Shown here piece by piece: positions 1 through 17,629 of a stretch of 23,564 nucleotides of DNA. Under the pieces are notes generated by a model. It worked only from the letters and a program-made list of their open reading frames with translations, was not told where the DNA came from and did not search any database. Both the position numbers and the translations under genes were made by a program. Source of the stretch: a virus; the IMG/VR virus record IMGVR_UViG_3300006076_000028, positions 1 to 23,564 of that record; one strand, given 5' to 3'. The first letter of the stretch is position 1. The number at the start of each line of letters is the position of its first letter.

Positions 1-3000
1 AAAGCAGAGTGTTCCCAGAACTGAGCAAAGCCTACAGAGGATCCTTGATTGCTTCTCCTCCAGGACTCGAAGAGATCGTCTAAGAGAGTCAGTGCTTCCT
101 GCGCCCCTGGCCCAAAGATCCTAGCGTAGTATCCCTCCCTGTATCGGACAGGGATTCCTGCCACAGTCTCCGCAACAAACTCATCACTGAACTCTTGCCT
201 CAGTTCGTCCACTAACTCATCCATGTCCTTGAAGCCCGTAGAAGGCTTCAGGAAGTCGTCTGCTGCGACTGCGGCTACTCCTCTGAGGTCATACCCCTTA
301 GTCGCCTCGGAGACCTTGAGAGAGAACTCAGGGTCCAGGACGCTCTTGATGGTCATGTAAGGGAGAAGTTCATCCTGAACAGTCTTAGGCAAGTCCGTGA
401 CAAAGCTGAGAGGAGTCCTGTCATCGAAGCCAGCCTTCCTCAGCTTCTTGGCTAGCTGAGTTACTCTGTCCTCAATGAAGTTGACGGCCCTTGTGTCCAA
501 AGAAGCAAAGGAGCCGTCTAACCCCATGATGTTCCCAACGACTACACCAGACTCAGGATGCACAGTGAAGACTTCTCGGACAGCCATAGGGCCTTGTCCA
601 TAGACCGTGCTGATGACATCTGAAGGCTTGTGGAACTTAGTGCTGTATACGATGGAGCCTTGAGGATCTATGAAGCCTGACTTGATGCCCGGGTTCCAGT
701 GCTGAGTGGACTGACGCTCTGCCCTGGAGATGTTAAGCTCCTCCCTGCTGATCCTCTCTTCTCTCTTCAAAGACTTCTCTACGAAGATTCCCTTGGTCTC
801 CAGATCCTTCTGAAAGTTCTCACTGAGAAGAGTGCTGAGTCCTTGCGCTCTAGGCTCAAAGGCTCCTGTCTGGATGGTGAAGTCAGAGAGCCTTCTGCTC
901 ACACTTCCATCAATGCCTTCAGCGATGACTGTGACATCAGTTCCAGAGACTCTGCCTAGCTTCTTATTGATTCCCTTGATGACATCTAGGAGTTCATCTG
1001 TGGTCTTGGTCCTACTGAGGATAGCTATGTTCCCATCCTTGTCGATGTGTAGAGCAATCTTGGAAGTGTCCCTAGCCACAGCAGTCCTAAGCTCTGCCAC
1101 GACATCATCAGTGATCCCAATGAAGCCAGCCTCGGACAGTCCGTTCTTCACATCAGCAGCAATGCTCTTGAAGTTGTCGAAGTGCTGAGCAACCCACTGA
1201 GGAGTAATGAACTCTGAGTTGATGAGCTTCTGAAGAGAGACCACTAGATGCTCAGGCTTCTGAGCTGCGTCCACCATCTGCACAAAGTTCAGTGCAGCCC
1301 TCTGAGGAACATACTTTCCTCTAGGCTTCCAGATAGGTTGTCCCCTCCTACCCGTAACGAACTCTCCTCCTGTGCCTAGCCTGCGCTCTATCGTGTTGGA
1401 GACACTCCTCCTCATATCCTGAATGAGCGGACTCTCGTTGAAGTCCACAAGCTCACTGAGTTGTTCTCTAAGAAAATCTCCTCTGGCTTTCTTGTATTCC
1501 CTCGAAGCAGATGCAGAAGTGACTGAGCGGAGCTTATCGTTAAGGAGGAAGGTGTCTCCGTTCGTAGTAATCCCATACTTCTCAGCAGCGGCAGAAGTGG
1601 GCTTACCAGCCTTAGCCCTCAGTGCCTCTACAAAGCCTTCTCTTGTCTCAATCGTTCTGGATAATCCCTTAGCAGCCTTCGCATACTTGCTGGGGTCCAT
1701 CTCAGCTAAGTTCTGAACAACGATGGGCACATTGTCTAGCCCAAGCATTTCTGCTGCCTTGAGTCGTTCCATGCCCTCAAAGACAACGAACCGTCCTCTA
1801 GTGTCTAGCCTCACTACAACAGGATGGAAGATGTTCTGATCCTTTACGATCTTGATGTAGTCAATGGCTGCTTGCTCTACTTCAGGATGAGACAGAGCAT
1901 TGTTCCCCAGGTTGGCTATGACCTCTGGAGTGGGGAGCATTGAAGTCTTGGAAGTCAACTCCATGTCCTTGGCAACTGAGGCCACATCCTTGACAAGGTA
2001 GTCCTCTACCGTAGTTCCTCTAACGATCTCCGGAGTAATGAGTCTGGTAGGAACATAGATACCGTCTACAGTCCTACTGGAGATCCTGGCTATAGCTCTC
2101 CTGCTCTGGCTGACTGCTCTGCTAAGCCTAGCGTTCCCCTTGCCTTTGACTCTCTGAACAACTGAAGGACTTACTATCTGCACAGAGCCACCTGCTCCGA
2201 ACAGGAAGTCAGAGATGTCTGCGTCCTGAAGCGTGTAGCCCTTCTGTGCCCACAGAGCAGCAAGAACTTCTAAGTTCTCCAGGTGTGCCTTGGTGGGCTT
2301 GCTCACTGTCGTGGAGGTAGCCATCCGTCCGACCAGGAACTTCTGGTCTCCTTCTTTGACAACCTGGAACGTCGTGACCCCTGGGAGAGCCGGACGCTCT
2401 GTGAGGCTCTTAGTGACCCCAGGATCCAACTTAGTTGCTTCGAGGGCTACGATCCTTCGATCAGGGTCGAAAGCGATCCTGGGCCGTCCTGGGATGCTTA
2501 CGGCGTGACTGTCTAGGCTTGTGGATTTGCCGAACAGAGAAGGCAAGGAAGCCCTGGCCTCCTTGGTCTGCTCCTTCGTGAATCCAGCAAAGGCTTTCGG
2601 AGGAGCGTAGAGGGTCCGGCTATCGAAGGAACCTTCCACCCCCTCAGCCAGAGTTCTCCCAGCCTCAGAGCCGAAGATCTTCTTGTTGAGAGCTACACTG
2701 TTGTTGTCCAGGAAGTTCCCCAAGTCTTGAATGAACTGGACTCTGCTTGGGTCAGTGGCTCTCTTCTCAAGTTCTCTGACTACGCTCAGTGCCTTCTCAG
2801 CAGAGCCAGAGAACTTGGTAGCCCTAGACGCAAGGACAGCAGTGTTCATGCTCTTGCCTATGGATGTCTCTTCAGCAGCCTGATCTAAGAGCTTCTGCAC
2901 TCTCACGAGTCCAGGATTAGTAGGGAGGTTCAGGTTCAGCTTCACCAGACTAGATGCTTTGTTTAGTCCCTTGGCTGCTCCGAAGGCTAGTTGCCCTCCC

Positions 3001-3719
3001 AGCTCCTTGCCTCTGTCCATGATCTCAGCCACCTTCACTGAGAGGCCAGGAATGTTCACTCCTTGGACTGAGATCTTCTTAGCGAAGTCGAAGGGTAGCT
3101 TGTTCAACACTGCCCGGGCTGCTGGTAGGTCATGGAGGTCTAGGCCGAAGACTACTCTCTGCCCTCTCTGCACTTGCTCCTTCAGAGTCTTGCCTAGGGG
3201 AGCAGCCAGGTCTCCTACGTCACTGGCTAGGATCTTAGTCCTGTCGTAGGACTTGGCTGCCTTGGTCAGAGTCTTCCTGAGCTTGGCTCCCTTAACCCCA
3301 TCCTGAGTAGCCATTGAAGCTACTCTCTTCAGATAGCTGAACCTAGACAGCTCCAAGGTCTTGCTGGCCTGATCTCCTGCCTTGGCCAGCTTGCCCGCCT
3401 TAGTGAGTCCTGCGATCCTGACTACGTTGATAGGGTCCAGAAGCAGAGCTAACCCGAAGTCAGCCGTAGCTGCTGCAATGTTGGCTCCGAAGTCATCTGG
3501 TCCAGCACCTGCTGTCTTCCTAATGACGTCAGCAAGAGTAGGTTGATCCCAGAACGTATGAGCCGGAGGAAGGTCTACTCCTGCTACCTTTCCTACGCCC
3601 CTACTGAGATACTCCCAAGGCTTGTTAAGGTAGTAGCCAATGGCTGCAAGAGTTCCCTGCTTGTGTGTCCTAGCTCCTGGATTCCTAGGAACAAAATCAA
3701 TGCCTTGGAAGTCAGTCAT
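1..3719 (-). CDS. Giant internal virion (ejection) protein with ParB-like motif, partial
   Basis: This open frame starts at an ATG whose first bases overlap the stop of the preceding gene (ATGA at 3716-3719). It runs off the window at base 1, so its C terminus is missing; 1,239 codons are visible. The start reads MTDFQGIDFVPRNPGARTHK. A hydrophobic, Ala-rich segment at residues 80-100 includes GLALLLDPINVV, a type of segment common near the start of large phage internal proteins. Residues about 605-668 contain HPVVVR, then an EGMER motif at 648-652 and AAEMLGLDNVPIVV. This matches the pattern of the ParB/sulfiredoxin fold (beta strand, GxxR-type loop, helix, VPVxV strand). Much of the rest is Lys/Arg/Ala-rich helix that I do not recognise. 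Position last in the late operon, after two other candidate internal proteins, and size compare with T7 gp16-class ejection proteins. The role in virion or DNA delivery is inferred; the ParB assignment rests on the motif only. Confidence 0.8.
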   Translation of the reverse strand, partial: MTDFQGIDFVPRNPGARTHKQGTLAAIGYYLNKPWEYLSRGVGKVAGVDLPPAHTFWDQPTLADVIRKTAGAGPDDFGANIAAATADFGLALLLDPINVVRIAGLTKAGKLAKAGDQASKTLELSRFSYLKRVASMATQDGVKGAKLRKTLTKAAKSYDRTKILASDVGDLAAPLGKTLKEQVQRGQRVVFGLDLHDLPAARAVLNKLPFDFAKKISVQGVNIPGLSVKVAEIMDRGKELGGQLAFGAAKGLNKASSLVKLNLNLPTNPGLVRVQKLLDQAAEETSIGKSMNTAVLASRATKFSGSAEKALSVVRELEKRATDPSRVQFIQDLGNFLDNNSVALNKKIFGSEAGRTLAEGVEGSFDSRTLYAPPKAFAGFTKEQTKEARASLPSLFGKSTSLDSHAVSIPGRPRIAFDPDRRIVALEATKLDPGVTKSLTERPALPGVTTFQVVKEGDQKFLVGRMATSTTVSKPTKAHLENLEVLAALWAQKGYTLQDADISDFLFGAGGSVQIVSPSVVQRVKGKGNARLSRAVSQSRRAIARISSRTVDGIYVPTRLITPEIVRGTTVEDYLVKDVASVAKDMELTSKTSMLPTPEVIANLGNNALSHPEVEQAAIDYIKIVKDQNIFHPVVVRLDTRGRFVVFEGMERLKAAEMLGLDNVPIVVQNLAEMDPSKYAKAAKGLSRTIETREGFVEALRAKAGKPTSAAAEKYGITTNGDTFLLNDKLRSVTSASASREYKKARGDFLREQLSELVDFNESPLIQDMRRSVSNTIERRLGTGGEFVTGRRGQPIWKPRGKYVPQRAALNFVQMVDAAQKPEHLVVSLQKLINSEFITPQWVAQHFDNFKSIAADVKNGLSEAGFIGITDDVVAELRTAVARDTSKIALHIDKDGNIAILSRTKTTDELLDVIKGINKKLGRVSGTDVTVIAEGIDGSVSRRLSDFTIQTGAFEPRAQGLSTLLSENFQKDLETKGIFVEKSLKREERISREELNISRAERQSTQHWNPGIKSGFIDPQGSIVYSTKFHKPSDVISTVYGQGPMAVREVFTVHPESGVVVGNIMGLDGSFASLDTRAVNFIEDRVTQLAKKLRKAGFDDRTPLSFVTDLPKTVQDELLPYMTIKSVLDPEFSLKVSEATKGYDLRGVAAVAADDFLKPSTGFKDMDELVDELRQEFSDEFVAETVAGIPVRYREGYYARIFGPGAQEALTLLDDLFESWRRSNQGSSVGFAQFWEHSA

Positions 3720-5548
3720 TTCTTACGAACACGCTCTAGCAGTGCCTTAAGTGCTGCGTTCTTTCCTTTCTGTTTGGCTAGCCTGTTGAACTTAAAGATG
3801 AGAGTTCGTAGCTGTTTCTTGTTCTTAACCCCAAGAGCCTTAGCAATCAGAGGCTTTCCAGTGAACACGTTAGTGGTGTCTATGGGGCTGCCTTGAGTGA
3901 GTCCCAAAGCACCTCTGCCTATAGGGCCTATGGTCTGAGAAAACCTGTCAAGCATCTTGGCAAAGGAAGCATCACTGTTGGATTTGTAGACCTTCTCTAC
4001 GAAAGTCTTATCCTCCTTCTTCTTCACCTCTGCGGAGATACCACTCTTCATAGCCATAAGATCAGCAGTCAGAGTATCCAGGACAATAGGCACTCCCTTC
4101 TGAAATGCTGTATACCCATTGCGAGCTTTGGGAGTTAGAGTGCTTAGCCCTTGCTGATCCAGGAACACACTCCTGTCATTCTTAACCTTCTCGTAAGCAT
4201 CCCTGAGTTTGTTGATCTCAGCTAATGCAGTATCTACATGCTTCCGAGCAGCCACAGGATCTTTAGGAAGCTTCCTAACGAAGTCAGCCTCTACCTGCTT
4301 AAGCCTCTCCTTGGCTAGATCGTTCTGCCTACCAGTAAGGAGACCTCCAGCGTAGCCAGTGGCCATCCCCTTAACAGCCAGTTGCTGCCCTTGAAGCCTA
4401 ATCATCATCTCAGGATCTTGTTGGGCTTGCTCTAAGGACACCCTGTCATCGGCTGGGATGAGGTTCTGACTGTCCGCCACTGCTAGCCTGTAACCCATAG
4501 AGGTCTCTGGATCAGCCTGACCCTTCCCAGCCTTGCCTTGCGCAGAGAGAAGGCTGATGCCCTCAGTGGCCTTATTGTGCCTGATAGTCTCGGCTAGCTT
4601 CTTCTGATCCTGTGTAGCTCTCCTGTTCTCCTTAGCCTGCTCAAAGCCTTGCTGGAGAAGGATGGCCTCTAAAGCACCTTTCCGCTTCTCTTCGGCCGTG
4701 CTTAGGTTCAACAGATTGTCTAAGGACTGAATACCAGCAGACAGGGTGTCCTGTGCCATGCCTTGTTGCTTAGCTACGGACTCTCCTATCTTGAGTAGCT
4801 GGGAGATGTAGGCTCTCCTGTTGGCAGCCTTGATCTGCCTAGGAAGAAGGCTCAACCCCTGAGTCAAGATGGAGAGCAAGACATCGAAGAAGCCGATAGG
4901 GTCAGGCTTCTCGTTGAGAACTTGTGTCAGCTTCTCCTCATAGGTCTTCAAGAACTCAGGACTGAGAGTTCCTGGAGCTTTGGTCTGCCCGTCAGGACTC
5001 AGGAAAACTTCCTTGAACTTCTTCAGCAGATCGGTCTTGATCCCCTGGACGATGGTATCGCTTGTCTCATTTGCGTTCTGAGTGCTGGAAGCCTGAACAG
5101 TATCCACGTTGCTGACACTCGGAGAAGGGGCCTGCTGGGTTGATACCTGAGAGGCCACGAGTGGATCCTGAGCCTGTGTAGGACTTGCTGTGGGAGCATT
5201 GATCCCAGGAGCCGAAGCTGCCAGGTTTGAGGTGAGGCCCTGAAGCATGGATCCTGCATACTCTACCGGAGGAGTAGCAGTGGCTTGGCCGGGATCTGCT
5301 CCCACTGAATCAGTTACAGGGACATCAGGAGCCACACCTTGGAGCATAGAGCCTACCTGCGCTTCTGTGGCCGTAGCCTCAGCATGGGCCTGCCTGGCCT
5401 TAGCTGCCTCCATAGTGTTCTTGAGTCTCTTGTTGCTGAGATCCTCCTGAAGCAGTGCCTCTTGTAGAGCCTTTGTAGTGGCTGAAGGGATAGACCCTTC
5501 TCCCTCTAGGGGACGCTTAACCGCTCTTTTAATCTGAGATCCAATCAT
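3716..5548 (-). CDS. Putative internal virion protein, 610 residues
   Basis: I do not recognise a named family. The protein has three parts. Residues 1-60 are basic and helical. Residues about 60-165 are a low-complexity linker rich in Ala, Pro, Ser, Thr and Gln, in which the hexapeptide GSMLQG occurs twice (66-71 and 99-104). The remaining 440 residues are largely charged helix (for example around QGFEQAKENRRATQDQKKLA) and end in a Lys/Arg-rich tail. No signal peptide is visible; the only strongly hydrophobic stretch is around IGFFDVLLSILTQGLSLLP. The start is an ATG at 5546-5548 with AGGG upstream, six bases after the previous stop. The gene sits between a small Gly/Ala-rich protein and the giant protein, which is the position of internal core proteins in T7-like phages. 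An ejected core protein is therefore the best guess; a tail-associated structural protein is the alternative. Confidence 0.75.
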   Translation of the reverse strand: MIGSQIKRAVKRPLEGEGSIPSATTKALQEALLQEDLSNKRLKNTMEAAKARQAHAEATATEAQVGSMLQGVAPDVPVTDSVGADPGQATATPPVEYAGSMLQGLTSNLAASAPGINAPTASPTQAQDPLVASQVSTQQAPSPSVSNVDTVQASSTQNANETSDTIVQGIKTDLLKKFKEVFLSPDGQTKAPGTLSPEFLKTYEEKLTQVLNEKPDPIGFFDVLLSILTQGLSLLPRQIKAANRRAYISQLLKIGESVAKQQGMAQDTLSAGIQSLDNLLNLSTAEEKRKGALEAILLQQGFEQAKENRRATQDQKKLAETIRHNKATEGISLLSAQGKAGKGQADPETSMGYRLAVADSQNLIPADDRVSLEQAQQDPEMMIRLQGQQLAVKGMATGYAGGLLTGRQNDLAKERLKQVEADFVRKLPKDPVAARKHVDTALAEINKLRDAYEKVKNDRSVFLDQQGLSTLTPKARNGYTAFQKGVPIVLDTLTADLMAMKSGISAEVKKKEDKTFVEKVYKSNSDASFAKMLDRFSQTIGPIGRGALGLTQGSPIDTTNVFTGKPLIAKALGVKNKKQLRTLIFKFNRLAKQKGKNAALKALLERVRKK

Positions 5549-5554
5549 TGCTTA

Positions 5555-6157
5555 TCACCCTGGTTTAATAGCGGACCCGGCTGCCTTAGCTGCTCCGTTA
5601 ATCAGAAGAGGGAAGAGTCCCCGCTTCTGTCCCTTCTGCTGGGAGAGGCCTCCGCCTAAAGCAGTAGAGGTCAGTTGCCCTGCATTGGACAGATACTGAG
5701 CCAGAAGATTCCCTTGTAGTTGGAACTGAGGACTCCCTGTCTGGAGTAGTGTTCCGATCTGAAGCTGTCTTCCTTGAAGGAGCGCGTTGGTCAGAGCCGA
5801 CTGCTGCTGCACTGCTGCCGTGGTAGCCGCTCTACTGGCTAGCTCCCTTGCTGCTCCTCCTAGAGCCAGCCCTCTGCCTCCTCCACCAGCCAGTCTAGCT
5901 GCGTTGACTGCTGCTATCTGCGCTCCAGTAGTGGAGGTGATGGCTCCTCCCTTGAGTTCTCCAGGCAGACCAGCAGCTAATGCGTTGGCTTGTGCGAACT
6001 CAGGGATGGTTCCAAGGTTCCCAGCTCTCTTGAAGACATCCTCGAATGTCCCCCGCAGTGCTGAGTTAAAGAACCCGAACTGTTGTTTAGGGTCGCTTAC
6101 AGGAGTGCTGCGCTGCCCGAAGAGCGCACCTCCTAGCCTCTTAAAGAATCCACCCAT
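5555..6157 (-). CDS. Putative small internal virion / ejection protein, Gly-Ala-rich
   Basis: This 200-residue protein begins MGGFFKRLGGALFG, an amphipathic glycine-rich N terminus seen in small podoviral ejection proteins. It continues as Ala/Gln/Leu-rich helix, with a GGGGRG run near residue 93 and repeated AQ/QQ/LQ pairs around residues 115-155, and ends in a basic, Ala-rich tail (NGAAKAAGSAIKPG). It resembles P22 gp7- or T7 gp14-type internal proteins in size, composition and location, directly after the tail genes and before two larger candidate core proteins. I see no catalytic motif. The ATG has a good ribosome binding site (TTAGGAG, six bases upstream), and the upstream stop TAG is part of that site. 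The role is inferred from context and composition rather than from a diagnostic motif. Confidence 0.72.
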   Translation of the reverse strand: MGGFFKRLGGALFGQRSTPVSDPKQQFGFFNSALRGTFEDVFKRAGNLGTIPEFAQANALAAGLPGELKGGAITSTTGAQIAAVNAARLAGGGGRGLALGGAARELASRAATTAAVQQQSALTNALLQGRQLQIGTLLQTGSPQFQLQGNLLAQYLSNAGQLTSTALGGGLSQQKGQKRGLFPLLINGAAKAAGSAIKPG

Positions 6158-6514: not shown

Positions 6515-6813
6515 TGAAGCACCTCGTTCATCAGTAGTCCCTGGGCAATGGTGTCAGAGTCTAACTCAAAGAAGGCTTGCAGTGAGCCGTCTTTGCCTGA
6601 CCTGTTGAGAGATAAAGAGAAGCCCTGAAAGCCAGCAGCGAGAACGGGGTAGGGATCAACGGGATCTTGCTTCACTGTCCCAGGCGAAGCAGCGTCTTGG
6701 ACCGAACGAGTATCCAAGGCTCTTACAAAGTCACGTAGCCAAGCTCTCAGGGCTTCAAAAGAATCAATGCTGCTAATGTTACGGGCATAGCTTAGGTTGG
6801 ATACTTCGCTCAT
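6511..6813 (-). CDS. Hypothetical small protein after the nozzle gene
   Basis: I do not recognise this 100-residue protein. The first 40 residues form a likely helix (SFEALRAWLRDFVRALDTRS). The rest looks beta-rich and ends in an acidic region (FFELDSDTIAQG). There is no signal peptide or membrane segment. The ATG overlaps the stop of the nozzle gene (ATGA at 6810-6813), and a strong purine-rich site, GAGGGGG, lies just upstream inside the end of that gene, so translation is coupled. Position suggests a virion accessory or assembly protein, but nothing in the sequence shows this. Confidence 0.62.
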   Translation of the reverse strand: MSEVSNLSYARNISSIDSFEALRAWLRDFVRALDTRSVQDAASPGTVKQDPVDPYPVLAAGFQGFSLSLNRSGKDGSLQAFFELDSDTIAQGLLMNEVLQ

Positions 6814-9800
6814 AGATCCCCCTCTCGACTGTAACTAACTTGCAGCATACGACGGTCCAGTTTGATATTGGTGTCCACACTGTAGAGAGAATACTTGTAA
6901 GCCTTCCCCTGGATGTGTGTATGGATTCTGTGCATCTCCCCGTTGGTGAGAAGAACACTTCTGTAGGCTCTCCAGGTGGAATCCCAGTCAACAGCATAGC
7001 GATAACTGAACGACCCGTGGCCCCACCAGATCTCTCTAACAATCTCCTTGTCCACTCCAGGTAGGTCCATCTCATCCCAGATAGCTTCCAAGTAGAGAGG
7101 AGCAAGGCCCAGGTGCGCAGTGTCTCCTACTGCAAGACTCCAAGGGAGACTGGCCACTATTCGTGTGTCCAGGAGAATCCGTAGCAGATCTGAGCCTGAA
7201 GAGCTGTCTGTGGTGTTGCTCTCAATAGGAACAATAACGAAGTCAGTGCCATCAGCCTTAATAAACATGACCCATACCCCGTCAAGCTCATTGTCTATGG
7301 CAGTCACTAGTTCTTTGTTCAGAGTCACGTCGGACACTGAGTTGACAGTGGAGATTTGGAATGTTCCAGACAGCCCAGATACAAGAGTGGAAGGGAGGAA
7401 GTCTCTACCCACGTAGGGGGCTAGCTGCTTGGAGTCAAGAGTGTAGACCCTCCCATTAGGCGCACCGACTACAAGCTTATTGATAGGTTTGTATGGAAGA
7501 TTGGCTTCTCCTGCCAGAGCATAGGCAGAGGAGTCCTCGACAATAGCAGTCACTGTGCTGGTAGGCCCTCCCCAAACTCCTGTGTGAGTTGTCCATGCTC
7601 CAGTGGTGTAGTTGAAGACTACTGCGTTGTGAGGCCTGTCGGAAGACTGGTCCTTCTCCTGATAGAAGCAGATCAGTTCCCTGCTGTTTGGATCATGCAG
7701 AACAGTGATGGTCTCAGGCTTCTGGATCCAGTCAAAGGCTTCTCCTGTTCCTGTCTGCTCTATAGCTCTGCCGATGTATTTGTAGTTAGTCCCATCGAAT
7801 AGGTAAGGCCCTTGCTTGGACCAGAAGAAGACAACGGACTGTCCTGTGTCGGGAATGGTGAGGAGCTTAACAGACTCAGGAGCGATGGCCCCTAAGCTGT
7901 CTGTAAGCTTCTGCACTGAGAACCTATTCGGAGAGGTCTCCACAAGCCTCCAGATAGACCCTAGCTTGAAAGCGATGACTGTCTCCCAGGCTGTAAGCAT
8001 GGCAACTATCTGGTCCCCTCCAGCGTCCTCTAGGGATGTGAAGTCAGTAATCGTATCGAACCTCTCATACTGCCCAGCAAAGGACCAGTAGACCCTTGAA
8101 GGAGCCAGAGGGTCTCCAGCCAACAGAAGCCTATCGTTGTATATCGTTCCTATAGAGCCTGAGGGCACAGGAGTCTCGTTCTCGAACAGAGTCTCAGGGA
8201 TGAGTCTGAGGTCTGTGATCTGCCATGCGTATCGAGGAGTCGAGAGTAGCGTAGTCCAGGAGGTGAAGTGAGCCATTACCCCAGTAGGCATGAATGTGTC
8301 TATGTCTACTCTCTGTAGGGGAGCATTGATAGCCAGGTCCACAGAATCATAAGGCGCACTCATGAAGATAGCCATGCCTGTAGATCTTGGATCAGGACTG
8401 GGAAAGATGGGATGGATAGAGATGGTCCTGTCCGTGCTGGTAGTCTTGACTACAGATCGCTCAGTGACGTGCTGTAGATTGTTGGCCTGGTCTGTGTAGA
8501 CAATGCTGATAGAGAACCATTTATCTACAGGAAGGTTTCCTCCTGTCGTGTGAGCCAGGATGGGGGCGTTAGTTCGAATGTCTCTCTTCCCTGCAAGGCT
8601 GAGATTCTTTCCATCAAAGACCTTGGCCTCTCCATTGGAGGACAGCATGAAGAGCTTCCCTCCTACCGGAACACTCCTCCACACGCCTGTGTTGTCCCAC
8701 TCATTGAGTAGCCCTCTGTTGGGAATGTAGATGTCAGCGAACTGTCCTTTGTAGTTCTTGTCGTAGAGGACTGCGTTGTTGGCCACTCCGAGAAGTCCTG
8801 ACTCTTGCCCCTGCTCTACGTAACTGAAGAGACCTTGCCACTTGGCTCTAACTATCTGGTCATCTAGTCCTTCATACTTCATGACTGTGGGGCCTAGGTT
8901 GGAGAAGCCTAAGCAGTCATCTGCTGATGTGTCAGGAACGCAGTCCATGACTCGGACAGGATCTAGGTCTCCGAACACATCAGTCTTGTTCTTGTCGTAG
9001 GAGGGGAATCCTCCAGTAGTGATCCGGTAGACATTATCGAAGACTGCGGGGTAGCGAGCTTTGCTAAGCACCTGCTTCCCGTAGACCTTATCAATGACGA
9101 GGTTGACCAGGAGAGAGATCGGAGCCTCTGTCTTGCCTTGGAAGCTAGAGGCAGCCTTCACGATGTCTTGAAGGTCTAAGGCTCCAGCCCACAGCCTGAA
9201 GGTTCCCATCGTGATGTAGCTCTGCGCAGTGGCGAAGGGATCGTTCCTATGCCCTGAGTAGAGGTTGAAGCTCCGCATGTCTCCCACAACGCTCCCAAAC
9301 TGCTCATTAGCCAAGCCAGTGCTTCCTAGGCTGATGGAGTAGATTCCGTTATGGAGCATTGTGGCATAGCAGTCTATAGGCAGCGGAGTCCCGTCTTCTG
9401 CGTTGTCCTTAAAGAGCCGCAGCTCCAGCTTCTGGCTATTGATGTTGAAGTGGATCTGCCAGGTAAGCGTAGTCACCGTATCCAAGGACAAGGGAGTAGT
9501 GCTTTTCTTCCTGTAGATCTTTACAGCAGTCCCAGCAGCATCCCTCCCCCAATACTCGAAGATGAAGTAGCCGTCCTCGTCAATAAGCCCTCTAAGGATA
9601 GGCACTCGATTAGCTACAGCCTGGCCATCAAACTCTCCTAGGCTCCCATTAGGGGAAGTGTATGCCTCTACAGCCCAGCAAGTCTGGTAGAAGCCAGGGA
9701 CAGTCTCCGAGGTAGGGATGACTGTGGAGTCCCTAGTCCCGTCTGTAAGCTCTGAAGGGTGAGGAGCATTGTTGTTCAAATTGTCTGCGTTAGTGTCCGT

Positions 9801-11390
9801 CTTGTGCTTCAGCTGATTCTTCTGCCAGGAGTAGGGAGTCTTGATCTGCATCTGGATCGTTAGAGAGTTCCTGTTCTCCTTCAGCGTAGGAGCCACATAG
9901 GACTTGTAGGTCTCGTCGAAGCCAAAGAGACTACGAAGGCTTGTGGCTAAGTCAGAGAGACCCTTGGAGTCTCCTATGCCGAACTGATAGAGCAGTCCTT
10001 GGGAGTCAGCGAACTTAATCCCGTAGCCTCCAAGGAACAGTGAGTCCTTGACGTAGGCAGCTCTGGTCAGATGAAGAGTTCCTTCTCGTCCATTAGGTCC
10101 GCTGTCCTGAAGCACAGGAACCCCGTCATTAAGCCTCCAATAGCCCGCAGTCGTGGCAGCCTCAGCGTCCGTGAGACTCCTTGCAGCCCATGCAAGCACC
10201 TCAGCAGCAGAGCGAGTAGTGTGCCACCATCTAAGCTCTGCTAGTCCTGTGCCTCTAGGAGGGGACTTGCACCAGTAGTTCGGAGGTTTGTTGCTCGGGT
10301 CAATACTGGCTGGATCAGGATGTGCGGGCAGATGAGCAGTGACTCCTCTGTAGATCGTAGAGGTTGTGAACTTCTCTCTGATGTTCGCAGAAGAAGCAGC
10401 CCCTCCTCTCACAGTGTATTCATTGAGTAGAACGATGTCCCTCTGGAGAGTTACTGCATCTGCAATGGTGTAGCCATTGTGGACATCATATTCCCCTGCC
10501 CAGGCTCTTGTCCTTGTAGAGCCACTGAGCTTACTCACATCTGTCAGGGTGGCTACATCAACCCCATGCACATAGAGCTTCATTGTGTCTGGAGTAGTCC
10601 CAACTGATTCCTGGTAGGTCAGAGCTACGTGGTAGGTAGTCCCTGGAATCCATAGACCTAGGTCATACTGGAACTTCATGGATGTGGAGCTTCTGAGATA
10701 CTTATTGTATTCAGAGGCATTTCCTGAGTCCACTCCGACCATATACCACTCAACATGAAGGATCATGTGTCCAGAGGTATCCATCCAGATAGAGATGGCC
10801 ATAGAGGGGATGGCTGCTACTACGTAGGCATGTGCAGCGTCAGGGAATGAGAAGGTGAGGGAAGCGTCTAGGTCCACAAGGCTGCACTGACCGACAGTGA
10901 CACACTGGTCGTAGACGTAACAGCCAAAGGACTCTCTGATAGGCTGCCCATAGTGAGAAGCAGCAGCCGTCCCTGGCCAAAGCCTATGCCTCTTTGATCC
11001 TTCGTAAAGGAGGTCACTGATATCCCCTGACTTGAGAACGAACTCTAAGGACCAGTCCCTGTCTGTCCTAGGCTTGAAGTCGTCATGCTCTCTGATGAGT
11101 CCATAGGAGTAGGGAGTCATCCAGTAGTCAATGGTGTCCTTACTGGCATTGCTGCTTGTGGTGTCCACCTTAATCATCTTCCTAAGCTCAGGAGATGTGT
11201 GCTTGGACAGGCAGCAGTCGTTGATAGGAGTGTCCATGTAGGGAGCGTAGGCCCATCTCTTATGGATCCTTCCATCAGGACTACGAACATTCTCAGCCCT
11301 GCGATAGAAGCCATCAGGAAGCCTGCTGTCCCTAAAGGTTGTGTTGAGGCCTTTGAAATCCTCACTCCTGTCTATGTTCTTTCTACTCAT
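6810..11390 (-). CDS. Tail nozzle / tubular protein B-like, with lectin (LamG-like) insertions
   Basis: This 1,526-residue protein is unusually long for its class (T7 gp12 is about 800). Residues 1-50 (FKGLN, RLPDGFYRRAENV, RIHKRWAY) match the 'gln...lpdg.a..a.NvR..dG.i.kRpGy' start typical of podoviral nozzle proteins. Residues about 860-1530 look like a beta-propeller-containing nozzle core; the segment at 1085-1117 (NDRLLLAGD, SRVYWSFAGQYERF) resembles the propeller strand signature of this group. Between them lie two lectin/LamG-like regions. Residues about 110-450 end in ELRWWHTTRSAAEVL and YWRLNDG, LQDSGPNGREGTL, a classic LamG tail. Residues about 505-745 form a second, weaker one. The start is an ATG overlapping the adaptor gene stop (ATGA at 11387-11390), with no clear Shine-Dalgarno, so coupling is likely. 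The core role is to form the distal tail tube; the inserts may bind host surface glycans (inferred). Confidence 0.8.
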   Translation of the reverse strand: MSRKNIDRSEDFKGLNTTFRDSRLPDGFYRRAENVRSPDGRIHKRWAYAPYMDTPINDCCLSKHTSPELRKMIKVDTTSSNASKDTIDYWMTPYSYGLIREHDDFKPRTDRDWSLEFVLKSGDISDLLYEGSKRHRLWPGTAAASHYGQPIRESFGCYVYDQCVTVGQCSLVDLDASLTFSFPDAAHAYVVAAIPSMAISIWMDTSGHMILHVEWYMVGVDSGNASEYNKYLRSSTSMKFQYDLGLWIPGTTYHVALTYQESVGTTPDTMKLYVHGVDVATLTDVSKLSGSTRTRAWAGEYDVHNGYTIADAVTLQRDIVLLNEYTVRGGAASSANIREKFTTSTIYRGVTAHLPAHPDPASIDPSNKPPNYWCKSPPRGTGLAELRWWHTTRSAAEVLAWAARSLTDAEAATTAGYWRLNDGVPVLQDSGPNGREGTLHLTRAAYVKDSLFLGGYGIKFADSQGLLYQFGIGDSKGLSDLATSLRSLFGFDETYKSYVAPTLKENRNSLTIQMQIKTPYSWQKNQLKHKTDTNADNLNNNAPHPSELTDGTRDSTVIPTSETVPGFYQTCWAVEAYTSPNGSLGEFDGQAVANRVPILRGLIDEDGYFIFEYWGRDAAGTAVKIYRKKSTTPLSLDTVTTLTWQIHFNINSQKLELRLFKDNAEDGTPLPIDCYATMLHNGIYSISLGSTGLANEQFGSVVGDMRSFNLYSGHRNDPFATAQSYITMGTFRLWAGALDLQDIVKAASSFQGKTEAPISLLVNLVIDKVYGKQVLSKARYPAVFDNVYRITTGGFPSYDKNKTDVFGDLDPVRVMDCVPDTSADDCLGFSNLGPTVMKYEGLDDQIVRAKWQGLFSYVEQGQESGLLGVANNAVLYDKNYKGQFADIYIPNRGLLNEWDNTGVWRSVPVGGKLFMLSSNGEAKVFDGKNLSLAGKRDIRTNAPILAHTTGGNLPVDKWFSISIVYTDQANNLQHVTERSVVKTTSTDRTISIHPIFPSPDPRSTGMAIFMSAPYDSVDLAINAPLQRVDIDTFMPTGVMAHFTSWTTLLSTPRYAWQITDLRLIPETLFENETPVPSGSIGTIYNDRLLLAGDPLAPSRVYWSFAGQYERFDTITDFTSLEDAGGDQIVAMLTAWETVIAFKLGSIWRLVETSPNRFSVQKLTDSLGAIAPESVKLLTIPDTGQSVVFFWSKQGPYLFDGTNYKYIGRAIEQTGTGEAFDWIQKPETITVLHDPNSRELICFYQEKDQSSDRPHNAVVFNYTTGAWTTHTGVWGGPTSTVTAIVEDSSAYALAGEANLPYKPINKLVVGAPNGRVYTLDSKQLAPYVGRDFLPSTLVSGLSGTFQISTVNSVSDVTLNKELVTAIDNELDGVWVMFIKADGTDFVIVPIESNTTDSSSGSDLLRILLDTRIVASLPWSLAVGDTAHLGLAPLYLEAIWDEMDLPGVDKEIVREIWWGHGSFSYRYAVDWDSTWRAYRSVLLTNGEMHRIHTHIQGKAYKYSLYSVDTNIKLDRRMLQVSYSREGDL

Positions 11391-12346
11391 CCGAGAGGTA
11401 GGTCAAGCCTTCCTAGAAAGTCATCACTGTCGTCCCCAAGGACATCATCTAAGATATTGGACTCGCTTCGATCCTCCCTCTCCAGTGTAGAGGCAGTCTC
11501 GTAGTGCGCTCCGAACTCCAGAAGAGTCCCTAGGGCCAGTTCTTTATAGTGGTCCACAGTGTCTTGCTCCTTCTTCATGTGGACAGCTACGAACCATTGA
11601 GCAATGTAGAGAATGACTAGCCTATGCTTCCTCGGCAGAGGAGTAATGTCTGTGTCGTTTACAAGATCTGGAATATCTTTGTAGTAGATCCCTCGTAACA
11701 GGGTCGCCTCTGTTGGGAAAGGGAGCAGAGCTATGAAGTATTTAGGAGATGCAGCATCGCTCTCTGAGATTGGAGACTGAGTGATCGTGTAGTATTGCTT
11801 TAGGTTCAGTCCTCTGAGAGACCATCTCTTCTGGTCATACTCATTGGGAACGATGTAGGATAGGTTGTTCTTCAGGCTGCTGACATTCCGTAACGACCAC
11901 AGTCTGGAGTAGTCATCAGGAAGCTGGATGTAGGGGAAGTAGATAGAGAGGATCTTGCCTGTCTCCGTAGTTCCTATGTAGGGAGCATCCAGAGTTATAG
12001 TGGTCCCAGAGGCCGCAGTGATGATGTAGCCTTGAGTCTCTGGGTCATCCCCTGAGCCCGACAAGACATCACCAGCAGCAATCCCCGTAAGGCTGGACAC
12101 GTTGACGACTGAGGTAGACCCGTTAGTGAAGTCCCCAGTCAGCCCTGTAAGAGGAGCTTTGACTGTGAGGACAAGAGGCTTCTGGAGCCAGAACCTACTC
12201 TCCCTCTTCTGTGCTACCCACTGCTGGGCCTTGTTGATCTGGTCCTCTACCATGGACACCACTTCAGAGTCAGTGGAGTCTAAGCCAAACTCTCTGATGC
12301 AGAGGTTCTTCAGTTCAGACAGAGGATAGTCAACGAGAGAGGCCAT
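11387..12346 (-). CDS. Putative head-to-tail adaptor (tubular protein A-like)
   Basis: This 319-residue protein lies immediately before the nozzle gene, the place of the adaptor in T7-like late operons. The N-terminal 50 residues are helical (LSELKNLCIREFG, EDQINKAQQWVAQKRESRFW), as in gp11/gp4-type adaptors, followed by a beta domain with Gly/Thr/Ser-rich strands at residues 60-130 (GSTSVVNVSSLTGIAAGDVL). The strand IYFPYIQLPDDYSRL is followed by a region containing RLVILYIAQWFVAVHMKKE, a buried helix such adaptors carry near the C terminus. The acidic tail includes DDVLGDDSDDFLGRL. The ATG shares one base with the previous TAA (TAATG). AGGAG lies 14 bases upstream, too far for a normal site, so reinitiation is likely. 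Length is longer than T7 gp11 (about 200) because of the added beta domain. Assigned by position and pattern. Confidence 0.68.
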   Translation of the reverse strand: MASLVDYPLSELKNLCIREFGLDSTDSEVVSMVEDQINKAQQWVAQKRESRFWLQKPLVLTVKAPLTGLTGDFTNGSTSVVNVSSLTGIAAGDVLSGSGDDPETQGYIITAASGTTITLDAPYIGTTETGKILSIYFPYIQLPDDYSRLWSLRNVSSLKNNLSYIVPNEYDQKRWSLRGLNLKQYYTITQSPISESDAASPKYFIALLPFPTEATLLRGIYYKDIPDLVNDTDITPLPRKHRLVILYIAQWFVAVHMKKEQDTVDHYKELALGTLLEFGAHYETASTLEREDRSESNILDDVLGDDSDDFLGRLDLPLG

Positions 12347-13195: not shown

Positions 13196-14845
13196 CTAAT
13201 CCTCATCTCTTCTTGCTCTCCGTGAAGACACTTCAACTAAGGGGGATGCTCCCCCACTTCCACCACCACTAGAGTATTCTCCACCGCTGAACCCCGCCCC
13301 GGCTGCGTCGCCCCATGCCCCGACGTTCGGCGTTGCAACGTTCGATCCAACGCCATCACTTCCAGGTGGAAGATTGAATCCTGGTATCGCTGAACCTGCC
13401 GAAAGAAGGGGAGACCCTGTATCCGGTCTATAGTCCCAACTCGGTGTTCCAGGTGATGTGTATTTAGGATCACCCGTTGTCGCAGAACTTAAATAGGTCG
13501 GCAGCGTCTGCTGATGGTGAATGTTCGTAAAAGTGCATGCCCCAGAAACAACGGAATCAGAAACGGTATTATCAACTAAATAGAAGCAGCAGTTATGGAA
13601 CCACATTGACCCGCTAAATGCCGTTGGTCCCGCTGAGAACGTAAACCGCTCATCATGTGTTAGGTGGTAGAACAGACAATGCTCATTCCTATTTGCAATC
13701 GAGCTGTTCTCAATTTTTCCGTTGTCTTGGATTAATATGTTGCAGAAAAGCGCATCCTGGATAAGTGGATCCCCCGAAGGAGTCATAGCCGCCTTATCGA
13801 ATAAGAATCCAAGCTCCTCCCAGTCAACACCACGCACATTCATAAAGACCAGGTTGTTCCGAGTAGTGGCGTTCTGAATGGAGATTAGATCTCCATGGAA
13901 CGGTGCTACGATTCTTCCTGTCGTTGCTGTGCAATTGAACACCGATTCGCACTGTTTGATGAATGTTGAGCCGAGATTCGTTGCTGTGCAGTCCCGTAGT
14001 AGGGTCGCCATTAGATATCCGGTCCCCTGATTACTCATTGAACAATCTGTGTAATAGGGTTCATCAAAAGCTGTTGTGGATGCCCAACGCCTTTCAACTG
14101 AAGTATCTATCCACGGATGATCACAGTTGTCGAACCAAATTCGCCTCGTCCCGTAAGTCGAAGACCCACCCTCATCGACCTGCTCTTTTGTCGTCAAGCC
14201 TTCATACTTCACATTGTTTAAGAATCTGGTTCCCCAGCTTGTTCCAGCGAGGATAACCGTTGCCTTAGTTGCTGAAGGATCGGCCTTGATCGTTAGCCAA
14301 GTATTATCCGCTCTTGGGTAGCCCGATGCCATTGATCCAAGCAGAGTATGCGTCCCCGCTTTACAGTAAACGACATCTCCACCGATATCCGCACCAGATC
14401 CCCCTCTTGCGTCCCGAAGGATAGTAAGTGCCTTAGCGAGAGACTGGACCGGGGAGGCCTCTGTTCCTGTGTTTGTATCACTACCCGCCGGGTCCATCCA
14501 AACCGAGTTCGGGGTAAATGCTCCACCTGAGTTATTGTAGATTTTATAAGTGACCACCCTTGTCGTGTTTCCCGTCCCTCCAGGTGTGGCTGTAATCGTC
14601 ACATCTAAAGGGCCGTCGTTTAAGGCCGAGATCGTAAGCGTCGCATTGTAGACCCAGAGTTTATTAGTGTGCTTTCCATAGGATGTCATTGAAGTTTGTG
14701 TGTCTGAGACTGTGGTGGTCCCGTCAGTGATTTCAAACTTAACCGATGCTATCCCGTCCTTGGAGGCAGCCGCCGCCCCAAGTTGGTAAGTCCCGCTCTC
14801 CATTGTCATAGGGACTTCGGTCGGCCTACATATCGCTTGGACCAT
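13196..14845 (-). CDS. Tailspike-like protein with Ig-like and right-handed beta-helix domains
   Basis: This 549-residue protein has an N-terminal Ig/cadherin-like domain (about residues 10-110: SVKFEITDG, DGPLDVTITATPGG). A beta-helix domain begins with VWMDPAGSDTNTGTEASPVQ at about 114-135, the DUF1565/pectate-lyase-like opening 'V.pG.sD.n.GT..sP..sla.Al'. The middle shows repeated short strands with paired Asn/Cys. A C-terminal segment (YRPDTGSPLLSAGSAIPG...NVGAWG) matches the usual end of secreted beta-helix proteins. The last 60 residues include a Gly/Ser-rich linker and a charged tail (SSRRARRDED). Such proteins bind or cleave polysaccharide; a catalytic residue cannot be assigned. The Ig-beta-helix layout is common in bacterial secreted proteins. 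The ATG has AAGGGG upstream, overlapping the previous stop. The gene belongs to a segment of different base composition. A tailspike role is inferred. Confidence 0.72.
   Translation of the reverse strand: MVQAICRPTEVPMTMESGTYQLGAAAASKDGIASVKFEITDGTTTVSDTQTSMTSYGKHTNKLWVYNATLTISALNDGPLDVTITATPGGTGNTTRVVTYKIYNNSGGAFTPNSVWMDPAGSDTNTGTEASPVQSLAKALTILRDARGGSGADIGGDVVYCKAGTHTLLGSMASGYPRADNTWLTIKADPSATKATVILAGTSWGTRFLNNVKYEGLTTKEQVDEGGSSTYGTRRIWFDNCDHPWIDTSVERRWASTTAFDEPYYTDCSMSNQGTGYLMATLLRDCTATNLGSTFIKQCESVFNCTATTGRIVAPFHGDLISIQNATTRNNLVFMNVRGVDWEELGFLFDKAAMTPSGDPLIQDALFCNILIQDNGKIENSSIANRNEHCLFYHLTHDERFTFSAGPTAFSGSMWFHNCCFYLVDNTVSDSVVSGACTFTNIHHQQTLPTYLSSATTGDPKYTSPGTPSWDYRPDTGSPLLSAGSAIPGFNLPPGSDGVGSNVATPNVGAWGDAAGAGFSGGEYSSGGGSGGASPLVEVSSRRARRDED
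13241..13255 (-). repeat. Perfect hairpin near the 3' end of the tailspike gene
   Basis: GGGGGA-TGC-TCCCCC is a 6-base-pair perfect inverted repeat with a three-base loop. It lies inside the Gly/Ser-rich C-terminal coding region, about 45 bases before the tailspike stop, close to the edge of the compositional island. The pairing is certain; a function in transcription or recombination is not shown. Confidence 0.4.
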
Positions 14846-15128
14846 TGCTTACCCCTTCTCGGCTGTCGCCGCCTCGATCTCCGTGTAACCGTCCTCGAAC
14901 GCTTCCTTCGGAGAAAACGACTCGTAGCCGTCTTTGTATCTTACGAAGTAGCCGCCGGGCTTAATACCGTGTTGCCAGGCCCATTCCGCTGTAACTTTTA
15001 CCTCTTCCCCGTCTACCCCACGAAGGAGGTAGTGTTCGCTCATGTCTGTTTTAGGATCAACGATCTCTTTGATCTCCATCCCATCAACGATCTTGTGACA
15101 TCTGTATCGCTTCATTGCCTACCCCTTC
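14843..15128. repeat. Near-identical 16-base junctions flanking the 88-residue gene
   Basis: CATTGCTTACCCCTTC (14843-14858) and CATTGCCTACCCCTTC (15113-15128) differ at one base. On the minus strand each holds, in order, an AAGGGG ribosome binding site, the previous gene's stop and the next gene's ATG. They bracket the 88-residue gene, with starts 270 bases apart. A shorter match (CATTGCTTA) occurs at 5546-5554 at another start. Confidence 0.7.
14849..15115 (-). CDS. Small conserved-type phage protein with GGYFVRYKDGYESFSP motif
   Basis: This 88-residue acidic protein starts MKRYRCHK and contains KPGGYFVRYKDGYESFSP and then KEAFEDGYTEI. Many phages carry a small protein of this kind ('GGY.V.Y.DGY.S.SP..AFE.GY') close to holin and Rz-like genes; its function is not known to me. 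There is no membrane segment. The ATG has AAGGGG eight bases upstream, formed by the last codons of the previous gene. The gene ends in EKG followed by TAA, where the same sequence forms the ribosome binding site of the tailspike gene. It lies in the CpG-rich, CTAG-poor island and is bracketed by near-identical 16-base junctions. Confidence 0.68.
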   Translation of the reverse strand: MKRYRCHKIVDGMEIKEIVDPKTDMSEHYLLRGVDGEEVKVTAEWAWQHGIKPGGYFVRYKDGYESFSPKEAFEDGYTEIEAATAEKG

Positions 15129-15418
15129 GGCGCAACGCCTTTCCTTTTCGTGATCCCGCCCCGCCAGGCCCGAACGCCAAGCAACGACAGCGCGACCGGC
15201 AAAGCCACGTCAACCAAGAACCCCTGAATCGCGGGCCAGATCCCGCTCGTGTTCCCCGCCGTAAAGGAGTCCAGAAGGAGCTTCTTCTGCTCCGGCGAAA
15301 TAATCCCCTTATCGACGGCCTTTTGTAAATCGCCCGCGATCTTGAGCGCGGTCTCGGGATCAGTGATACACGAAGCCAGTAAAAGAACTAACAATCCAGC
15401 AAGAATAAGATTCCTCAT
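15119..15418 (-). CDS. Small phage lipoprotein with a second hydrophobic segment
   Basis: The 99-residue product begins with a signal sequence of the Sec/SPII type: MRN, a Leu/Ala-rich hydrophobic stretch and a lipobox ending LLASC with Cys17 as the expected acylated residue. The mature part has a short helical region (DPETALKIAGDLQKAVDKG) and then a hydrophobic segment at about residues 61-81 (PAIQGFLVDVALPVALSLLG) before a basic tail. The lipobox points to a Gram-negative host and a periplasmic or membrane location. It lies among probable lysis genes. Spanin outer subunits are lipoproteins too, but usually lack a C-terminal hydrophobic segment, so o-spanin is only one option; superinfection exclusion is another. 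The ATG overlaps the previous stop (ATGA, 15415-15418) and has GAGGAGG upstream. Base composition is strongly CpG-rich compared with neighbours. Confidence 0.72.
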   Translation of the reverse strand: MRNLILAGLLVLLLASCITDPETALKIAGDLQKAVDKGIISPEQKKLLLDSFTAGNTSGIWPAIQGFLVDVALPVALSLLGVRAWRGGITKRKGVAPKG

Positions 15419-15780
15419 GCTTCCTCCTCAGTCGGCTCAGGCAGATCTTTCAGTTCGGCAGCAACAGGCTCAGGAGTCTCCTGAAGCTCCTCAGCGGCCT
15501 CAGGAGCAACTTCGATCTCTTTTCCGGCCTCAGACACCTCAGCCTCTTGCTTCGGCTTGTAGGGCGAAAACAGAAGCCTGAACTCATGGTAGCCGATGAG
15601 GGCAACATTCCCGTCTTCGTCTCGGCAGCAGAACTGCCCTTCCACTGAGCCTTCTCCTGGCTTGGCCACCCACCCAGGAGAGCAGTCTTCAAGGCCACAC
15701 TCCTTCAGGAAAGGAGTCATTGCCTTGCCTACTAACTCAGCTTGGATAACAACTCCGTCTTTGTTCTCGTAACGTTCCAT
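15415..15780 (-). CDS. Hypothetical protein with acidic Glu/Pro/Ala tail
   Basis: The 121-residue product has a compact N-terminal half (residues 1-75), with four cysteines (KECGLEDCSPGW and QFCCRDEDG) and a GYHEFRLLFSPYK segment. From about residue 78 on it has a low-complexity acidic tail made of Glu, Ala and Pro (EVAPEAAEELQETPEP). A loose similarity in layout to the 88-residue neighbour (a W, then a glycine-rich strand, then a Y..F..LFSPY segment) hints that both belong to the same broad group of small phage proteins near lysis genes, but this is weak. No signal peptide. The ATG shares a base with the previous stop (TGATG) and has AAGGA close upstream. Confidence 0.62.
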   Translation of the reverse strand: MERYENKDGVVIQAELVGKAMTPFLKECGLEDCSPGWVAKPGEGSVEGQFCCRDEDGNVALIGYHEFRLLFSPYKPKQEAEVSEAGKEIEVAPEAAEELQETPEPVAAELKDLPEPTEEEA

Positions 15781-16070
15781 CAGTCCTTATCCTCTAAATC
15801 CTTAACTAACCATTGAATGTCTCTACGCATCTCTCGCAGTTGTTCGATCAGCATAGTGAACAGTCTTTCTTGCCGCCTTGTCCACCAGATGACCAAGTAG
15901 ACGATAACGGCCCAACTACCTATGTCTTTTATGGAACTCAGAGTTGTAGTCTCTGTAGCTGTGTAGGCAGCCAGCACACCAATCCAACCTACTACCACAG
16001 TTAGGGGAGCAGCTAAGTCTTGCAGCATTGTTGTCTTTCCCTCGTCACACTGTTGCAGAACTTGAGGCAT
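15780..16070 (-). CDS. Holin-like small membrane protein
   Basis: The 96-residue product has two hydrophobic segments, about residues 19-36 (APLTVVVGWIGVLAAYTA) and 48-63 (GSWAVIVYLVIWW), followed by a charged helical C terminus (RRQERLFTMLIEQLREMRRD). This size, two-segment layout and charged tail fit class II-type holins, which form membrane lesions at the end of infection. An i-spanin normally has one segment near the N terminus and is less likely. I kept the first ATG (16068-16070): GGAGGG lies nine bases upstream, whereas Met15 has a poorer site. It is the first gene after the hairpin at 16103-16128, so it heads the downstream group of small genes. No endolysin is recognisable in this window, so the lysis role is inferred. 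Confidence 0.6.
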   Translation of the reverse strand: MPQVLQQCDEGKTTMLQDLAAPLTVVVGWIGVLAAYTATETTTLSSIKDIGSWAVIVYLVIWWTRRQERLFTMLIEQLREMRRDIQWLVKDLEDKD

Positions 16071-16648: not shown

Positions 16649-17629
16649 TTAGATGTTCTGGAAAGTAAGAACGCCCTGATAGCGACTGTTAGCCACAGTG
16701 GTGTTGCCCATGAAGAGCATCTGTGCCACCCGAGCGTCCTGATCAGGTGGAGTGCGGAACTTAGACATCACGAAGTTCCTACGCTTGTGGATAGTTACAG
16801 AGAGGTATTCCGAGTTGAGGAAATACATGCACTTGTCCCTGTAAGGACTACCGCTTCCTCGTAGAGAGGAGTCAGCGAGCATGGCATCCCACATCATGGT
16901 GATACCTTTGAACCTCTGAGAGTCGAAGCCAAGCTCCAATGCTCCAGTGTCGTTGAGCTGAAGCTTCCCGTAGCCTTCCTTCTCATACTGCTCGAAGAGA
17001 GTCTGCGTAGTGAGAATAAGATCAGGACGTTCGATGCCTTCAGACACGTCGTTGAGGAAAGTCCTCATTGGATCCACTACGGTAGTGGATGTGCTTGCAC
17101 TGAACTTGTTGGCCCACCATTGGTAAGTAGATCTGTTGATGCCTCCAACAGTGCTTTGACTACTAGCAGCCAAAACCTCTACAAGAGCGTCCAGTCCAAG
17201 AATGTCCTTGGGATTGGCTGCACTCGCAGTCTGGCAGAGCTGCCTGTTCAACTCCTGCCTGAAGGACTTCTGGAGGACCGTTACCTTGGTCCCTAACATT
17301 TTGAAGATCTGCTCAGGACCAGCGTTCTTCATCTCCTCTTCACCGGAGATAGACACAGTTCCTGCGACCTGCCGCCAGTTGAACCTGGCATTGGTCAGCT
17401 CTTCAGTAGGCTGAACGTTCAGCTTGTCGTAGCCCTTGTAAGATGCCACGGTGTTGTTCTCTGCGTAGATGACAGGCTCTGCGATGTAAAGTCCGCCGCT
17501 CTCCGTCTTAACCCTGTTCTTACTCAGCAACCAAGCTGACAGGGGGTTCCCTTTGAATACTGCTTCGGCAATCTTCCTCCGCATTACGTGGAAGGTCGAA
17601 GTTGCCAACATGTCGTAAGTGAGAGCCAT
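16649..17629 (-). CDS. Major capsid protein
   Basis: The 326-residue coat protein is preceded by scaffold and followed by a decoration candidate, the standard order. Residues 28-60 contain NPLSAWLLSKNRVKTESGG and EPVIYAENNTVASYKGYD. The region at about 70-100 (TEELTNARFNWRQVAGTVSISGEEE) matches the 'd.lt.a.y.wkq.a..vtisG.Ee..n.g' core of the large phage coat family with the HK97 fold. ILGLDALVEVL at about 143-153 and the final YLSVTIHKRRNFVMSKFRTPPDQDARVAQMLFMGN region (given here in outline) are also typical. The ATG has a strong AGGAGG site about eight bases upstream. It assembles the icosahedral shell on the scaffold. Confidence in the class is high. Confidence 0.9.
   Translation of the reverse strand: MALTYDMLATSTFHVMRRKIAEAVFKGNPLSAWLLSKNRVKTESGGLYIAEPVIYAENNTVASYKGYDKLNVQPTEELTNARFNWRQVAGTVSISGEEEMKNAGPEQIFKMLGTKVTVLQKSFRQELNRQLCQTASAANPKDILGLDALVEVLAASSQSTVGGINRSTYQWWANKFSASTSTTVVDPMRTFLNDVSEGIERPDLILTTQTLFEQYEKEGYGKLQLNDTGALELGFDSQRFKGITMMWDAMLADSSLRGSGSPYRDKCMYFLNSEYLSVTIHKRRNFVMSKFRTPPDQDARVAQMLFMGNTTVANSRYQGVLTFQNI

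Follow-up and report, generated by a model that had tools for sequence, protein, structure and literature searches.

The giant late protein encoded at one end of a podovirus record carries a domain of the ParB/sulfiredoxin (Srx) fold and, judging from gene order, is likely packaged and ejected together with the DNA. Specifically, sequence analysis confirms that residues 605-668 of the giant frame, where an initial annotation of this DNA had placed such a domain, fall within a genuine ParB/sulfiredoxin-fold domain; the range had been drawn too narrowly, as the domain spans residues ~591-694 (window 1638-1949). The window, that is the whole stretch of DNA analysed here, is identical with the virus record of 23,564 bases, which ends inside the giant gene. 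The frame, at 3719-3 on the minus strand, comprises 1,239 open codons from the ATG at 3719 to the record edge. The features of this protein are the following:

1-3719, minus strand: giant late protein of at least 1,239 aa in a T7 gp16-like position; the record ends before its C terminus (open frame from ATG 3719).
3432-3461, minus strand: DFGLALLLDP at residues 87-96, close to the N terminus; the motif is similar to GF..D...DP in other giant late phage proteins.
1638-1949, minus strand: ParB/Srx-fold domain, residues ~591-694 (PF02195 above cut-off, profile against shuffles, model residues 57-160 aligned to ParB structures).
1698-1859, minus strand: PF02195 ParB_N match, residues 621-674 (Pfam).
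1764-1775, minus strand: GxxR phosphate-binding (P, Box II) motif, G649-M650-E651-R652 (alignment column table; role of GxxR from PMC12704722).

Detection of the domain is supported by several profile collections. When the whole giant protein was scanned with hmmscan, PF02195 was the sole Pfam family matched, at 28.6 bits (E 1.5e-6), where the curated cut-off lies at 26.3. ParB-like families in PHROGs gave a run of matches to the giant protein at E 1e-3 to 1e-4, the NCBIfam model TIGR00180 (ParB/RepB/Spo0J) reached E 2e-5 over the whole giant protein yet remained under its own cut-off, and Noc, ParB and SbnI were the first entries returned by phmmer against PDB sequences. In addition, an independent ParB profile, derived from the ParB domains of 24 other phages with the window's own row left out, scored 44.3 bits against the domain, while the best of 5,000 composition-preserving shuffles reached 10.2. 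Because of this difference a chance match is excluded: that the resemblance is fortuitous, as the failure of single-sequence AlphaFold2 to return a confident fold might be taken to indicate, is already refuted statistically and by the agreement of the Pfam, PHROGs, NCBIfam and PDB searches, and retains a negligible probability. The sequence elements named in the initial annotation were found exactly where it had located them on the minus strand, namely HPVVVR at residues 632-637 (window 1826-1809), EGMER at residues 648-652 (window 1778-1764) and AAEMLGLDNVPIVV at residues 655-668 (window 1757-1716). The GC content is 0.48 in the domain segment and 0.52 in its gene, with no hint of a chimeric join.

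Structure prediction is in agreement with this assignment. AlphaFold2 applied to the segment alone, without relatives, gives a pLDDT of 34 and no confident fold, and for this reason the fold assignment rests on sequence homology. When the 24 phage ParB domains were provided, block-mean pLDDT values were 73-91 at segment residues 91-140 and 83-91 at segment residues 61-70 and 101-140, and the elements of the model follow the order strand - helix - two strands - helix - strand. In Foldseek and VIA-align comparisons this model tops out on ParB-CTP and Noc structures, with Z up to 11.6 over ~96 residues, and sulfiredoxins are placed just below them (6ky4 at Z 10.4); the BFVD entry R4TLX6 (1,293 aa) is also among the Foldseek matches. 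The model inherits its fold from the relatives and is supporting, not independent, proof; the boundaries given above, residues ~591 and 694, are taken from it.

The active-site loop of the domain reads G649-M650-E651-R652. According to a 2025 survey of the ParB-CTPase fold (PMC12704722), GxxR is the defining P motif and its R-to-A substitution abolished NTP binding in those binders tested; 17 of 28 purified ParB-fold proteins showed no nucleotide binding in vitro, the choice of nucleotide is not predictable from sequence, and one of the phage proteins that did bind is fused to DUF1983, which often occurs in receptor-binding proteins. In the alignment of the domain with its 24 phage relatives, G649 and R652 are aligned in all 25 rows. 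The two positions in between are peculiar to the giant protein, given that these nearest relatives have GHTR (20), GHHR (3) or GNHR (1) and in no case Met-Glu. Partition ParBs carry GERR at Box II where GMER is found here and, in particular, E93 of Myxococcus ParB (mutated to A in 7o0n) aligns with M650, meaning that the Glu of the GERR box is missing. As this Glu is replaced by M650, ParB-type CTP hydrolysis is not expected. The initial suggestion that Met-Glu before the Arg may reflect altered catalysis was overstated, since GxxR defines the motif and both its G and its R are kept. Nucleotide binding by the domain is, on these grounds, possible.

Sulfiredoxins need for their chemistry the catalytic Cys of a G-C-H-R loop. 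This residue is absent from the giant protein, which has Met-Glu at both positions, and only the similarity in fold remains; sulfiredoxin chemistry is not expected from a loop without Cys. With chromosomal ParB and Noc, which are CTP clamps, the domain shares the fold and the PF02195 profile. It differs from them in the GMER loop and in that Pfam and NCBIfam returned neither a central HTH nor a C-terminal dimerisation domain for the visible 1,239 aa, the C terminus being missing. No parA was seen among the genes examined in the window, which code for virion proteins or are small and unassigned. A role as partition ParB or as sulfiredoxin is not expected for the domain.

The remainder of the giant protein yields little. 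Fragment searches against Pfam and PDB gave no credible match to further domains in the visible 1,239 aa, and neither MPTase nor lysozyme nor any other polyvalent-protein domain was detected there, ParB being the only domain recognised; a kinase-like reading of residues ~380-530, made by eye, was dropped as it found no match at all. Hydropathy over the visible 1,239 aa reaches its maximum, 1.48, at residues 88-106. The N-terminal DFGLALLLDP motif has possible counterparts of the short GF..D...DP pattern, retrieved by regular expression, in GFGLDTILDP of Anabaena phage A-4L ORF27L (locus L143), GFTGDLASDP of the MW202803 giant protein (L002) and GFALDVGLDP of a 1,103-aa frame (L035).

The giant frame lies among virion genes, those with an assignment being:

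20769-22421, minus strand: terminase large subunit (phrog_38, E 3e-74).
18786-20759, minus strand: portal protein (phrog_156, E 4e-11).
16649-17629, minus strand: major capsid protein, MCP (phrog_9953, E 1e-58).
11387-12346, minus strand: head-tail adaptor-like virion protein (phrog_2941, E 0.0044, weak).
6810-11390, minus strand: tail nozzle / stabilisation protein, 1,526 aa (phrog_3287, E 8e-12).
5555-6157, minus strand: 200-aa late protein whose place and length suggest a gp14 counterpart, with no meaningful profile match.
3716-5548, minus strand: 610-aa late protein whose place and length suggest a gp15 counterpart, with no profile match.

The complete order on the minus strand is terminase large subunit, portal, MCP, a decoration-like protein, a block of small genes, a 549-aa protein, adaptor, nozzle, two short proteins and then the 200-aa, 610-aa and >1,239-aa proteins. 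Among the matches listed, the relatives of the terminase belong largely to Zobellviridae and other podoviruses, and the MCP is 24-33% identical to the MCPs of 14 phages. Gene order, together with the MCP, portal, terminase and nozzle matches, bears out the earlier description of the frame as a giant late internal protein of a podovirus. The arrangement parallels the T7 gp14-gp15-gp16 set, which are ejection proteins (reviewed in PMC8954989), and speaks for the giant protein being one as well. Specifically, the giant frame resembles gp16-type proteins in its place after the 200-aa and 610-aa genes downstream of the nozzle and in its size of more than 1.2 kaa, a likeness by order and size alone; it differs from them in showing the ParB fold and no N-terminal transglycosylase match. 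No profile match of the 200-aa, 610-aa and giant proteins to T7 gp14, gp15 and gp16 was obtained, and it counts against the ejection reading that the neighbours are called gp14- and gp15-like only from where they lie and how long they are. The giant protein could, at the extreme, be a cytoplasmic late protein merely adjoining the virion genes and not a virion component, an idea in keeping with the fact that, apart from ParB, it gives no profile match. Gene order, size and the DP motif, common to other giant late proteins, argue against this, as does the fact that the A-4L genes found in this position are annotated as internal and tail proteins, making such a location quite improbable.

Other genes of the window deserve mention on their own. 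The phrog_3287 match of the nozzle protein (6810-11390, minus strand) is confined to its C-terminal third, residues 1093-1270; in the N-terminal part, residues 215-299 give a weak LamG/concanavalin-like match (PF13385, E 0.01), which suggests a nozzle protein with a large carbohydrate-binding insertion. The 549-aa protein (13196-14845, minus strand), encoded between the capsid and adaptor genes, has by eye the appearance of a right-handed beta-helix, contains SDTNTGTEASPVQSLAKAL and looks like a tail spike or head fibre; it found no match in Pfam or PHROGs. The small-gene block at 14849-16070 on the minus strand, between the decoration-like and 549-aa genes, codes, among others, for a protein resembling a lipoprotein (MRNLILAGLLVLLLASC) and for one that may lie in the membrane, and perhaps represents lysis genes inside the structural block.

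A counterpart by position is ORF27L of Anabaena phage A-4L (AGR48554, 1,717 aa, annotated 'tail protein', L143:20116-25269, minus strand), which occupies the equal place in a podovirus late operon and shares the DP-type motif given above. A BFVD model named 'Tail protein [Anabaena phage A-4L]', an 859-residue piece whose name and length point to the second half of ORF27L, matches the domain model in Foldseek at E 7.8e-5. ORF27L differs from the window's protein in that the ParB-like stretch lies near its C terminus, at residues ~1323-1403, and has lost GxxR (D-N-H-A-I); sequence profiles give this stretch no support. It is followed, from about residue 1424, by LYHGT..GTYFS, for which PF18760 is matched at E 0.22 only. 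ORF27L thus appears to hold a decayed ParB-like fold and then, possibly, an ADP-ribosyltransferase. A further podovirus giant late protein at a position matching the window's giant frame is UOF82138 of MW202803.1 (L002:23805-27743, minus strand); it is annotated 'chromosome segregation' and was considered as a possible ParB, a candidacy abandoned as no profile of ParB or SMC type reached its cut-off on this protein.

The loss of the motif in the A-4L counterpart suggests that such domains can decay, and raises the question of whether the ParB fold of the giant protein is itself catalytically dead, that is a compact structural or protein-binding module in contact with further ejection proteins or with the channel on its membrane side. 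The presence of Met-Glu before the Arg, where His/Thr or Glu-Arg is usual, and the mosaic nature of ejection proteins (PMC8954989) would fit with this. Set against it are the retention of G649, R652 and the strand-helix core, and a score that is still above the Pfam cut-off, so that we hold a dead module to be a tentative explanation, of rather low but not trivial probability.

The reading that we favour, to which we would give about an even chance of being correct, is that the giant frame is a podovirus gp16-like ejection protein whose ParB domain has an early auxiliary or effector role, binding NTP and making contact with DNA or nicking it. According to this model, the ParB-CTPase/Srx-fold domain is inserted at residues ~591-694 of a large internal ejection protein, which, as its gene position suggests, would be packaged and would enter the cell before the genome or along with it. 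Once inside the host, and by extension from the family, the domain would bind nucleotide, ATP or CTP most likely, in a pocket closed by R652, and the nucleotide state would control DNA contact or drive a weak, sequence-unspecific nick or cleavage. Delivered by the virion, the domain could then serve at an early stage as an auxiliary or effector module directed at the incoming DNA or that of the host, as proposed for published polyvalent proteins. Nucleotide binding, on which this scheme depends, is made less certain by a Met-Glu pair unlike that of the 24 nearest relatives and by the proportion of non-binders in the survey cited above.

A further possibility is that the domain serves as an NTP-gated DNA clamp or grip of the ejection channel, closing on the incoming genome and aiding the transcription-independent pulling-in proposed for gp16-C. 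The ParB fold is in fact a CTP-dependent DNA clamp module (PMC12704722), and gp16-C is a conserved cytoplasmic DNA-binding part for which enzymatic ratcheting has been proposed (PMC8954989). However, neither the HTH nor the dimerisation domain of ParB is matched in the visible 1,239 aa, the Glu of the Myxococcus GERR box is Met here, and there are no relatives that place the domain in a conserved channel; an outside chance is all that we would assign to such a grip.

The early auxiliary or effector activity that we favour has its nearest precedent in the DdrB-like ParB domains described by Iyer and colleagues (PMC5512222) in phage polyvalent proteins, which are encoded adjoining virion genes, are in part packaged, and whose DdrB-ParB domains were proposed to be NTP-regulated DNases. 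These proteins (PF18763; prototype phage P1 DdrB) likewise have a ParB/Srx fold in a large late-encoded protein thought to be delivered with the DNA, and the giant gene, like theirs, sits among late virion genes. The window's domain differs in that it matches PF02195, while PF18763 gives no match at E up to 10. Polyvalent proteins combine several unrelated effector domains; in the giant protein one domain is recognised in the visible part, the C terminus lying outside the record. By sequence, the nearest ParB cores found are those of phage ParB-N / DNA methyltransferase fusions (e.g. L103, found via GenBank and annotated as DNA methylase) and of the phage ParB frames L105, L109 and L127, with RLKAA..LGL..VP in common. 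Frames of this type differ in having 153-709 aa, a domain mostly near the N terminus and GHTR or GHHR, and none is giant.

Searches for close relatives were largely negative. As single queries, the giant protein, the domain, the 610-aa neighbour, the nozzle, the MCP and the terminase gave nothing confirmed among viral contigs, the giant protein and the nozzle nothing confirmed among genome contigs, and tblastn of the giant protein against 50,697 phage records nothing at E 0.01. A tblastn match at E 2 in the 21-kb structural gene of cyanophage P-SSM7 and one to Streptococcus phage SpSL1 were taken as chance or unrelated early genes. An alignment search with the MCP retrieved 80 distant records; the giant protein found no match in 49 of these 80 and in MW202803. 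PF02195 itself is present in 7 of these 50 records (the 49 with a related capsid protein and MW202803), always in frames of 283-505 aa, and in 2 of 17 phage records (MW202803 and other MCP/terminase relatives), in frames of 499 and 235 aa. In a giant frame it occurs in none of the 66 distinct related records, many of them fragments, and the 31 viral loci with the most similar ParB core have it in frames of 153-709 aa. The literature search found nothing relevant on ParB in podoviral internal proteins. The ParB_N subtype at the gp16 position therefore appears new in the material searched, and to this extent the initial remark that such a domain would be unusual is justified. It does not apply to the general theme of ParB-like domains in injected late phage proteins, which is already known, as DdrB-ParB proteins have been published and the A-4L protein at the gp16 position has a Foldseek match.

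The in-host roles of large ejection proteins are known only in part. A ParB_N-type fold in an ejection protein suggests that phages put NTP-sensing, DNA-directed modules into the first proteins entering the cell. Should the fold prove to act as a nucleotide-dependent DNA clamp or gate in the channel through which a short-tailed phage ejects its genome, this would represent a new use of the ParB switch. The finding broadens the published polyvalent-protein theme, taking it beyond the DdrB subtype to ParB_N.
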